Source of the DNA: Chloroflexota bacterium
GTDB taxonomy: Bacteria; Chloroflexota; Dormibacteria; Dormibacterales; Dormibacteraceae
Reading direction: 5' to 3'
DNA: 43,730 bases
Assembly (NCBI GenBank): GCA_005883575.1
Contig: VBFH01000001.1
Coordinates: 1 to 43,730 of the forward strand
The notes beneath the pieces were generated by a model. It was not told where the DNA came from. It saw only the letters and a program-made list of their open reading frames with translations, and searched no databases. Positions 38,039-42,553 of the stretch are shown one piece after another. Positions within the stretch are counted from its first letter, which is position 1. Each line of letters begins with the position of its first letter. Made by a program: the position numbers and the translations under genes.

Positions 38039-38269
38039 TCATCGGGCCTCCCAATAGTTGAGGCGACGGCGCTCGGTGCGGGCGCAAAGGCTGCAGCCGC
38101 ATCCGTGGAGCTCGAGGGGCAGACGGTTGCCGTGCTTGTCAAACCTATGGTTGAAACGCAGATCGCCGGCCTCATCGCGGCTGCGGGGAGAAGTGGCGTA
38201 GAGGAGGTGTATGGCGTGCCTTACTTGGACGTAGGGTGCGACGTATGGTCCAATGTCTGTCGGATTCAC
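38039..38269 (-). CDS. Small Cys-containing hypothetical protein upstream of mraZ
   Basis: 76 residues from GTG 38269 (GGGGAG 5 nt upstream; GTG 38272 also possible). The product starts VNPTDIGPYVAPYVQVRHAI and ends with a basic stretch carrying CGCSLCARTERRR, a possible metal- or redox-active Cys group. Most codons end in C or G, as in its neighbours. The TGA stop is followed at once by the mraZ GTG, and the promoter lies about 36 nt upstream, so it would be the first gene of the dcw transcript. I do not recognise the family; it may be a coding leader. Confidence 0.45.
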   Translation of the reverse strand: MNPTDIGPYVAPYVQVRHAIHLLYATSPRSRDEAGDLRFNHRFDKHGNRLPLELHGCGCSLCARTERRRLNYWEAR

Positions 38270-38283
38270 CACTTCTCCCCACT
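38264..38283 (-). promoter_or_regulatory. Candidate MraZ operator (two AGTGG repeats, 10-bp period)
   Basis: AGTGGGGAGAAGTGGTGAAT on the minus strand: AGTGG at 38279-38283 and again at 38269-38273, ten bases apart. MraZ proteins bind TGGG/GTGG-type repeats with a 10-bp period downstream of the dcw promoter. The site lies about 20 bp downstream of the -10 box and overlaps the ribosome binding site of the small ORF. Only two repeats are clear, fewer than the three or four usually described. Confidence 0.5.
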
Positions 38284-38304
38284 GATCACCGCGATTCGCC
38301 GCAG

Positions 38305-38333
38305 ACCCTAGCAGCGCCGTGTAAGCCTGTCAA
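38305..38333 (-). promoter_or_regulatory. Main dcw promoter
   Basis: TTGACA (38328-38333) and TAGGGT (38305-38310) with a 17-nt spacer on the minus strand. This is the best sigma-70-type promoter in the window. It serves the small ORF, mraZ and the genes that follow. The 171 nt between it and the ABC permease stop (38334-38504) contain no gene that I can see. Confidence 0.75.
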
Positions 38334-38504
38334 TACCTTTACCACAAGATCTAGAAAGGCTAAACCGGCCATCGACAAGTCCTTTCCCCATATGTTGTGG
38401 GTGAGACAGTTGCGAGGCCTAAATACGGGGCTCGAACGTGATAGTCGCGAACATTAGTTTGGTAAACCCCCCACGACCGGCACGGATCTATCGCTTACTT
38501 CTCT

Positions 38505-40156: not shown

Positions 40157-40233
40157 GGCTATCTCCTGAAATGAACCCCACGAGCACCGAGCTTGCGGCG
40201 TGAGCTCGCGGGGACCCCTGGACGTGAAGCGGA

Positions 40234-40278
40234 CAAAAGAAAAGGACCGTGGCGGTGCCCAACAACCGCACGGTCCTT
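40234..40278 (-). terminator. Intrinsic terminator in the ABC operon leader (attenuator)
   Basis: Stem AAGGACCGTG/CACGGTCCTT (40242-40251 with 40269-40278) extended by CGGT/ACCG inside with a one-base bulge, 8-nt loop, followed on the minus strand by TTTTCTTTTG. It stands 78 nt before the ABC ATPase start and downstream of the leader ORF, so it would stop transcripts before the exporter genes unless opened. Confidence 0.8.
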
Positions 40279-40320
40279 GCTTGAGTCTCTGGGTTCTAGG
40301 TTTCGGCTACCGGACCCGGC

Positions 40321-40386
40321 TCAATGGTGTGCGGATGGGCGCACTTCACCGATGACGGTGAAGCGTGTCTTGTTGATGCCGCCCAT
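40321..40386 (-). CDS. 21-residue leader peptide of the ABC exporter operon
   Basis: ATG 40386 with GGAG 7 nt upstream; encodes MGGINKTRFTVIGEVRPSAH followed by His and TGA. It ends 43 nt before the terminator. The spacer contains GGTCCGG (about 40309-40315), which can pair with the GGACC of the terminator's left arm. A ribosome stalled on this ORF could change the fold, as in known ribosome-mediated attenuation of antibiotic-resistance genes. It lacks a run of one amino-acid codon, so an antibiotic or general translation slowing is a likelier signal than amino-acid starvation. Confidence 0.5.
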   Translation of the reverse strand: MGGINKTRFTVIGEVRPSAHH

Positions 40387-40414
40387 TAGCACACTCCGAA
40401 AAATCCGAAATGGA

Positions 40415-40432
40415 CACACCCGAATGGGTGTG
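40415..40432 (-). repeat. Hairpin at the start of the ABC operon leader
   Basis: CACACCC/GGGTGTG, 7 bp, 4-nt loop. ATTTTT follows 11 nt later. It could be a weak terminator for the upstream peptidase gene or part of the leader fold. Confidence 0.45.
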
Positions 40433-40444
40433 CAGACGCTTCCT

Positions 40445-40473
40445 AGACTAACCGGCTCGCCTCTGCCCGTCAA
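40445..40473 (-). promoter_or_regulatory. Promoter of the ABC exporter operon
   Basis: TTGACG (40468-40473) and TAGTCT (40445-40450) with a 17-nt spacer on the minus strand. It overlaps the last codons and stop of the peptidase gene, so the exporter has its own transcript with a leader of about 280 nt. Confidence 0.65.
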
Positions 40474-42553
40474 TACCGAACCGCGATAGGACAAAAGCCA
40501 TCACGAACGCCTCCTCGCGCCATGACTCGTAGCGACCCGACGGACCCATGTGGCCCGCGCCCATCTGCGTCTTCATGACGATGGCGCAGTCGCTCCGGTT
40601 CGCGGTCCGCAACCGCGCCACCCATTTCGCAGGCTCCCAGTAGGAAACGCGGGGATCGTTGAGCCCACCGGTGACAAGCAGCGCTGGGTAGCTTGCGGGA
40701 CGCACGTTGTCGTACGGCGAGTAGCTCTTGATGTAGCTGTAGTACTCGGGCTGCGCGGGATTGCCCCACTCGTCGTATTCGTTCACGGTCAGTGGCAGCT
40801 TGTCGTCGAGCATCGTCGTCAGTGCGTCGACGAACGGGACCTGTGCGACCGCGCAGCCAAAAAGGTCGGGCCGCTCATTGAGCACGGCCCCGATGAGCAG
40901 TCCCCCCGCGCTCCGGCCGCGGATGGCCAGGCGTTCGGGAATCGTGTAACCATCGGCGACGAGCTGTAAGGCGCACGCGATGAAGTCATCAAAGGTGTTG
41001 CGCTTGCGGAGCAGCTTGCCGTTCTCGTACCACTCCCTCCCCATCTCGCCTCCGCCCCGCACATGCGCGATCGCGAACGCAAATCCGCGGTCGAGCAGGC
41101 TGAGGCGGGCGGGATCGAACATCGGGTCGTTTGAGTGCTCGTAAGCGCCGTAGCCGTAGAGCAAGAGCGGCGAGGCCTTCGTCCGCACGTGCTTGCGGTA
41201 GACGATCGAGATCGGCACGCGGACTCCGTCCGGAGCAACGGCCCACAGACGCTCGGTCAGGTAATCGTCGCGGTTGTAACCGCCGCGCACGGGCTGCTCT
41301 TTGACGATGGTCCGGTCGCGCGTCTCCATCTCGTAGTCGACTGCGGCCCACGGGGCCGTCAGCGATGTATAGAAGAACCGCATCACACTGCTGTCGTAGT
41401 TGGGGCTCGAGCCTGGAAAGGCGGTGTACGCAGCGTCAGGCTGGGCGACGATGTGCAGGTCGCCGGTCGTGCAGTTGAGCACTTCGAGACGCTCCAGGCC
41501 ATCGGAGCGCTGGCCCAGAACCACGTGGCCCTTGTGGACGTCGGTGAAATTGAGCCGGACGCCCGCGCGCTCCGGCACGACGTCGGTCCACGATTCTCTG
41601 CCGGGACTTGCCGTCGGCGCAGCCATCAGCCTGAAGTTGGTGGCACCGTCGTTGGTGAGAATCAGAAAACGATCGTCCTGGTGATCTACCGAGTACTCGA
41701 TGTCAGTGCGGCGCGGCTCGATGATCGCGGGTTCGGCTTCGGGTTCATCGCTCCGCAGGTAGTGATACTCGCTCGTCACCTGGCTGGCGGTGCTGATGAA
41801 GATATAGCGCTCGCTCTTCGAGAGCTCGATGCTGACCTCGAATCGCTCGTCATCCTCCTGAAACACGAGCACGTCCTCCTCGGTCGGCGCGCCGAGCGTG
41901 TGCCGCCAGACCTGGAACGGTCTCATGGCCTTGTCGGGCTTGACGTAGAAGAAGGTCTTGCTGTCGGCGGACCACGCGGCACCGTAGTAAACGCCTCCGA
42001 CTACGTCATCGAGGTCCGCGGCACGCGCAAGGTCGCGAAATCTGAGCTCATGGAGCTCGGATCCGTCGACGTCTGACGCGTAGGCGATGAGGTTTTCATC
42101 AGGGCTCCGCTCCACGTAGCCGAGCTCGAAGTACGGGTGGCCCTTGGCAAGCTCGTTGGCGTCGAGGAGCACCTCTTCGGGCGTGTCCGGAAGTGCGCCT
42201 TGCGCGTGCCCGGCGTCCGACTCGCCCCGGCGCCGGCAGTAGATCTCGTAGTCGAGACCCTCCACCGTCCGCGTATAGCTCCACCAGCCCTTGAAGAGGG
42301 TCGGCGCGGAGGTGTCGGTCTCCTGGACCCGGCCGATGATCTCGCGGTAGAGCTTCTCTTCGAGCTCGGCGCCACCCGCCATGACGGCTTCCGCGTAAGC
42401 GTTCTCGGCTTCCAGGTACGCGATGACCTCTGGATTCTGTTTGTCGCGCAGCCAGTAGTACGGGTCGACGCGCCGATCGCCGTGCGCCTCGAGGACGTGG
42501 GGACGCTCGGCGGCTACCGGCGGCCGGGCGGGGGTGACTTTCACCCGCTCCAC
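40448..42553 (-). CDS. ptrB: Oligopeptidase B-like serine peptidase (S9A)
   Basis: 701 residues. N-terminal signature DRRVDPYYWLRDKQNPEVIAYLEAENAY (about 29-55), then a beta-propeller, then an alpha/beta-hydrolase domain with GRSAGG (Ser548), LNDPRV (Asp633) and GAGHMGP (His668) as triad. Oligopeptidase B cuts short peptides after basic residues in the cytoplasm; substrate acidic residues were not checked. No signal peptide. The gene name is a family assignment. Confidence 0.9.
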   Translation of the reverse strand: MERVKVTPARPPVAAERPHVLEAHGDRRVDPYYWLRDKQNPEVIAYLEAENAYAEAVMAGGAELEEKLYREIIGRVQETDTSAPTLFKGWWSYTRTVEGLDYEIYCRRRGESDAGHAQGALPDTPEEVLLDANELAKGHPYFELGYVERSPDENLIAYASDVDGSELHELRFRDLARAADLDDVVGGVYYGAAWSADSKTFFYVKPDKAMRPFQVWRHTLGAPTEEDVLVFQEDDERFEVSIELSKSERYIFISTASQVTSEYHYLRSDEPEAEPAIIEPRRTDIEYSVDHQDDRFLILTNDGATNFRLMAAPTASPGRESWTDVVPERAGVRLNFTDVHKGHVVLGQRSDGLERLEVLNCTTGDLHIVAQPDAAYTAFPGSSPNYDSSVMRFFYTSLTAPWAAVDYEMETRDRTIVKEQPVRGGYNRDDYLTERLWAVAPDGVRVPISIVYRKHVRTKASPLLLYGYGAYEHSNDPMFDPARLSLLDRGFAFAIAHVRGGGEMGREWYENGKLLRKRNTFDDFIACALQLVADGYTIPERLAIRGRSAGGLLIGAVLNERPDLFGCAVAQVPFVDALTTMLDDKLPLTVNEYDEWGNPAQPEYYSYIKSYSPYDNVRPASYPALLVTGGLNDPRVSYWEPAKWVARLRTANRSDCAIVMKTQMGAGHMGPSGRYESWREEAFVMAFVLSRFGIDGQRRAG

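Follow-up and report, generated by a model that had tools for sequence, protein, structure and literature searches.

A probable ribosome-mediated transcription attenuator ahead of an ABC exporter pair in Candidatus Dormibacterota

What does the leader do that, on the minus strand, separates an S9 peptidase gene from a DrrA-like ABC ATPase/ABC-2 permease pair in a Candidatus Dormibacterota soil MAG? A first-pass annotation had recognized in it the architecture of ribosome-mediated attenuation, a description that proved largely right: we consider it highly probable that the leader is a ribosome-mediated transcription attenuator controlling the exporter pair. Coordinates below refer to the window, that is, the whole 43,730-nt stretch of DNA analysed (Table 1).

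The leader contains the elements that the annotation had listed, namely a promoter, a hairpin before the open reading frame (ORF), a 21-codon ORF with its ribosome binding site and a strong terminator with a T-tract before the ATPase gene. The promoter (TTGACG-17-TAGTCT) escapes a generic promoter scan because its -10 box matches at only 3 of 6 positions; the pattern TTGAC-N17(+/-1)-TANNNT is nonetheless retained in 40 of 48 homologous leaders. ORF and terminator are separated by a spacer of 43–46 nt. Folded whole, the leader reaches -127.3 kcal/mol vs -100.1 for dinucleotide shuffles (z = -5.4). A search of a plasmid collection gave no match.

Table 1. Features of the leader and its neighbouring genes (window coordinates)
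Feature	Position	Strand	Evidence or remark
S9 oligopeptidase-type gene	40448-42553	-	5' neighbour of leader
-35 box TTGACG	40468-40473	-	Sequence; conserved in relatives
-10 box TAGTCT	40445-40450	-	Overlaps stop codon of upstream peptidase gene
Hairpin 1 (5' hairpin), CACACCC-ATTC-GGGTGTG	40412-40433	-	Nearly invariant in f1; absent from f2/f3
Shine-Dalgarno GGAG of leader ORF	40394-40397	-	Sequence and relatives
Strand 1 (GAGUGUGCUAAUGGGCG), SD/start codon region; putative anti-antiterminator with strand 2	40380-40396	-	Partner-swap test; MFE structure
Leader ORF, ATG to TGA, 21 codons, MGGINKTRFTVIGEVRPSAHH*	40321-40386	-	Co-located 20-27-codon ORF in 48/48 leaders
P3, hairpin inside ORF (GCUUCACC..GGUGAAG)	40344-40364	-	Predicted fold
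Strand 2 (GCGCCCAUCCGCACAC), last ORF codons; core CCGCAC (40329-40334) pairs terminator 5' arm	40327-40342	-	Pairing profile peak and partner-swap test
P4 spacer hairpin (UUGAG..CUCAA), includes UGA stop and GGTCCGG	40281-40324	-	Present in f1a and f1b
Strand 3, terminator 5' arm and loop (GGACCGUGCGGUUGUUGGG)	40258-40276	-	Nearly invariant in f1; pairs strand 2
Intrinsic terminator hairpin (strands 3:4)	40243-40277	-	About -21.9 kcal/mol
T-tract TTTTCTTTT	40235-40243	-	Sequence
ABC ATPase, 272 aa	39338-40156	-	PF00005; under drrA cut-off
ABC-2 type permease, 278 aa	38505-39341	-	PF01061

The two genes behind the leader, which lie ahead of mraZ and the dcw cluster, form an ABC-2 type exporter by their PF00005 ATPase and PF01061 permease. 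In NCBIfam the ATPase comes closest to DrrA (TIGR01188; 229.7 bits vs a cut-off of 312), and DrrB (TIGR01247) is among the best matches of the permease (27.9 vs 223). The exporter had been called DrrAB-like, which holds as a resemblance; the pair falls outside the DrrAB subfamily as curated, both scores lying far under the cut-offs. A search for solved structures of the permease found none.

How widely the leader accompanies this exporter was followed through its relatives, those with named records being Candidatus Dormibacterota / Chloroflexi soil MAGs. With positions 40230-40447 as query, blastn finds matches in 26 of 42 genomes of its own family (f1), spread over 6 of 14 genera, and the order peptidase–leader–ABC–permease is kept at all family loci where the ABC gene was found. 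The terminator motif without mismatch is confined to this family, occurring once per genome and only at the exporter locus. Permease orthologues (about 59–88% identity) are present in 53 of 110 class genomes, and in families f2 and f3 and genus g14 of f1 the ABC genes follow diverged leaders that have an ORF of 20–25 codons and a terminator, with a recognizable promoter in most and upstream genes that differ from the peptidase. Counted over three families, 48 genomes carry the leader ahead of the same exporter pair, with ORF and terminator in all 48 leaders; at L025 the stop codon is displaced, and L110 is without such a terminator. At ten f3 loci (L101, L102, L104-L109, L111 and L112) the ORF starts a few bases past the -10 box and therefore looks leaderless. 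This distribution bears on a reading in which a repressor binds hairpin 1 as its DNA operator and the terminator's sole part is to insulate the exporter from the peptidase gene. Its palindrome (CACACCC-N4-GGGTGTG) does occur once per genome, close to the predicted start site, as an operator might; yet g14, f2 and f3 lack it and still have the remaining leader, behind other genes, and an operator leaves the pairings described below unexplained, making this account highly improbable. Within f1, hairpin 1 could still act as an operator side by side with attenuation.

Among f1 leaders the sequence hardly changes at hairpin 1 or in the terminator's 5' arm and loop, while the terminator 3' arm varies, which suggests from the sequences that the 5' arm takes part in a second pairing. 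Scanning strand 3 against 14-nt windows of the 48 leaders reveals a sharp peak of pairing energy at the last five ORF codons (mean -17.5 kcal/mol), other windows giving roughly -5 to -11 kcal/mol. Since subgroups differ in the register of the 1:2 helix, column-wise covariation on MAFFT alignment A1 was set aside and a partner-swap test used instead. True 2:3 partners scored -18.8 vs -15.6 when swapped between groups (rank 2 of 40320 group permutations) and true 1:2 partners -19.8 vs -15.2 (rank 6 of 40320), ranks that are optimistic because the leaders share descent and the groups were drawn post-inspection; the control pairing 1:3 showed no effect in the same test. The 2:3 helix is ACCGCAC:GUGCGGU in f1, GAGACCGCAC:GUGCGGUCUC in L091, GGCCUCAC:GUGAGGCC in L104 and L112, and GGGCCGCGC:GCGUGGCCC in L095; 1:2 is represented by GUGUGC:GCACAC (f1a), GCGGUU:AACCGC (L013), GGUGC:GCACC (L015) and UGAGGC:GCCUCA (f3). 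Pairing profile and partner-swap test together place an antiterminator that competes with the terminator over the ORF, and covariation across groups places an anti-antiterminator at the start codon region. As judged from these comparisons, the leader has the form of a classical four-strand attenuator, whose mutually exclusive 1:2, 2:3 and 3:4 set covaries across leaders. The spacer motif GGTCCGG, listed at first pass, is present and can pair with the terminator in the window, yet this pairing is broken in several relatives; the conserved antiterminator strand is instead the CCGCAC core inside the ORF.

Strong structure in an untranslated leader, together with the near-invariant elements of f1, would also fit a ligand-binding riboswitch or T-box beside which the ORF is accidental. 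We judge this very unlikely: at gathering score Rfam yields no family at the leader, here or in 12 relatives (an E-value of 10 returned chance matches only), helix registers and sequences vary freely between groups, and the ORF persists, in each of the 48 leaders and, out of class, in a fixed frame.

Whether the ORF matters as a peptide or as a track for ribosomes can be asked of its substitutions. Its span, with the 48 ORFs being our own picks, is open in its own frame in 48 of 48 leaders and in the other two frames in 19 and 27. Synonymous bias is absent (16% synonymous changes in frame vs 23% and 21% in the other frames), so the case for coding rests on openness, frame and position and not on protein-type selection. 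We read this as selection that keeps the frame open and translated and preserves RNA pairing, not as selection on the peptide; with no synonymous bias, what does the sensing is apparently the position of the ribosome and not an arrest peptide.

Nascent-peptide-specific arrest of the ErmC or MsrD type, in which the peptide senses one drug and stalls at a set codon, would draw on the recurring peptide parts, which are GE/GG-A/V-R/C and a terminal A-H in f1 and f3 and R-S-L/V-P-T in other families. These residues overlap strand 2 and P3, segments under the constraint of RNA pairing, and the N-terminal codons, the stall site required to free strand 2, differ between groups; with synonymous bias absent as well, peptide-specific arrest is unlikely. 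A classical amino-acid attenuator, where the ribosome stalls at codons of a scarce amino acid, has the identical 1-2-3-4 architecture, and several Arg codons stand at the beginning of the f3 ORFs. It is nevertheless extremely doubtful here. As had been noted at first pass, the peptide has no starvation-type codon run: none is common to the leaders, the longest same-residue run is 1–3, and early codons are Thr/Gly, Val/Ala or Arg according to group. The AUGAGGC.. start region of f3 is also explained by strand-1 pairing, and the genes controlled encode an exporter, not biosynthesis.

Attenuation by ribosome position makes predictions for the fold, which we calculated for the 48 leaders with transcripts that stop short of strand 4 and a ribosome set on the start codon, codon 5 or the stop codon. 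Mean 2:3 pairs number 8.7 with the ribosome at the start codon, 7.5 at codon 5 and 0.1 at the stop codon, the last value arising by construction, as a ribosome there masks strand 2; the start-codon ribosome gives more 2:3 pairs than the stop-codon ribosome in 48 of 48. With no ribosome, 1:2 dominates in f1a-c (about 0.1–1.6 2:3 pairs), but most of f2 and f3 are predicted to favour 2:3, so the predicted default without translation differs between families, off in f1 and possibly on elsewhere.

On the model that follows, RNA polymerase would initiate at the TTGACG-17-TAGTCT promoter and transcribe the 21-codon ORF. Without a loaded ribosome (in f1), 1:2 would pair, leaving 3:4 to form and transcription to end at 40235-40243; a ribosome that reaches the stop codon would cover strand 2, with the same outcome through the 3:4 terminator. 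A ribosome halted on or close to the start codon would instead cover strand 1 and leave strand 2 free, allowing the 2:3 antiterminator to form, the terminator to be blocked and the ATPase and permease genes to be transcribed. The comparisons above show the anatomy, its conservation and the partner-specific 1:2 and 2:3 pairings; we infer translation of the ORF and termination at this site, and for the natural inducer a compound with an early arresting effect on ribosomes (lincosamide- or pleuromutilin-like, for instance) that the exporter removes. Neither a codon run nor a conserved nascent peptide singles out one compound.

Conservation of ORF and terminator in relatives, whose absence was named at first pass as a refutation, extends across the three families and, as a terminator with an in-frame ORF motif, phylum-wide. 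Other families supplied 46 regions upstream of the orthologous ABC gene. A strong terminator is present in 31 of them (controls: 0 on the reverse complement, 2–3 in shuffles), and 15 are without such a terminator. The terminator 5' arm carries CCG[TC]G[GA] in 27 of the 31, and a complementary strand-2-like motif, GYGCCCR, precedes the terminator in 16 of these 27 vs 2.5 expected. These loci stayed outside the building of the four-strand hypothesis, the GYGCCCR motif itself having first been noticed there. At 15 of 17 loci examined, the motif falls within a short ORF in one same frame (other frames, 2 and 1). A per-locus minimum-energy test of 2:3 was weak, with values under 0.05 at 8 of 27, and the motif and frame tests are clearer. 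By these motif comparisons, other Chloroflexota families appear to share the in-frame strand-2 motif and terminator before the same pump. It is an evenly balanced proposition that all belong to one family of attenuators of ancient origin that sense ribosome position, passed down through Chloroflexota together with a single ABC exporter and reading early arrest whatever the peptide, with f3 having a version whose (near) leaderless ORF begins a few bases from the predicted transcription start.

Most known attenuators that respond to ribosome-targeting compounds come from Bacillota and Actinomycetota. The present one combines partner-specific pairing over deep divergence with a home in uncultured soil lineages, and may represent a natural sensor design that needs no particular arrest peptide. 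Read as an attenuator, the leader assigns to the exporter a function that can be tested and yields a prediction, that the compounds such bacteria meet and expel would be those arresting ribosomes at or just after initiation. A partial literature search found no published description of the present leader. The mechanistically closest systems appear to be the vmlR and bmrBCD leaders of Bacillus subtilis, a likeness that concerns mode of action. In the vmlR leader, an upstream ORF (uORF) lies inside the anti-antiterminator hairpin, and a ribosome at its start codon blocks that hairpin so that the antiterminator forms and the terminator is bypassed, a logic demonstrated experimentally (PMC9226507). 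Start-codon arrest on the uORF would let the antiterminator form here in the same way; differences are the product (an ABC-F ribosome protector there, an exporter here), the uORF (3 codons vs 21) and the added layers of NusG pausing and SD sequestration in vmlR (PMC9226507). Ribosome-mediated transcription attenuation, likewise demonstrated experimentally, acts in the bmrB-bmrCD leader on an ABC exporter, again through an anti-antiterminator, an antiterminator and a terminator (PMC4191407). Its terminator is, however, inside a 53-codon ORF and not about 45 nt past a 21-codon one, its promoter is under AbrB and its rare codons raise basal read-through (PMC4191407). Premature terminators ahead of ABC transporter genes were also described as ABC-leaders by Naville and Gautheret 2010 (PMC2965389), the accessible part of which makes no mention of Chloroflexota or of the present leader.

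Several further observations concern the surroundings of the leader. A strong GC-rich hairpin (40173-40214, minus strand) lies between the terminator and the ribosome-binding site of the ABC gene; it is missing from most other f1 leaders, and L007 and L020 have different inverted-repeat inserts at the equivalent position. Two loci are missing the exporter pair: L115 (genome G034) has kept the terminator alone, with GUCCGG replacing GUGCGG and mraZ next, and L116 (genome G020) has kept hairpin 1 alone. The same two genomes are nearly identical to the window in a block upstream of mraZ (38260-38345), which is probably the dcw promoter with MraZ boxes. A tmRNA gene lies at 2414-2791 on the minus strand.
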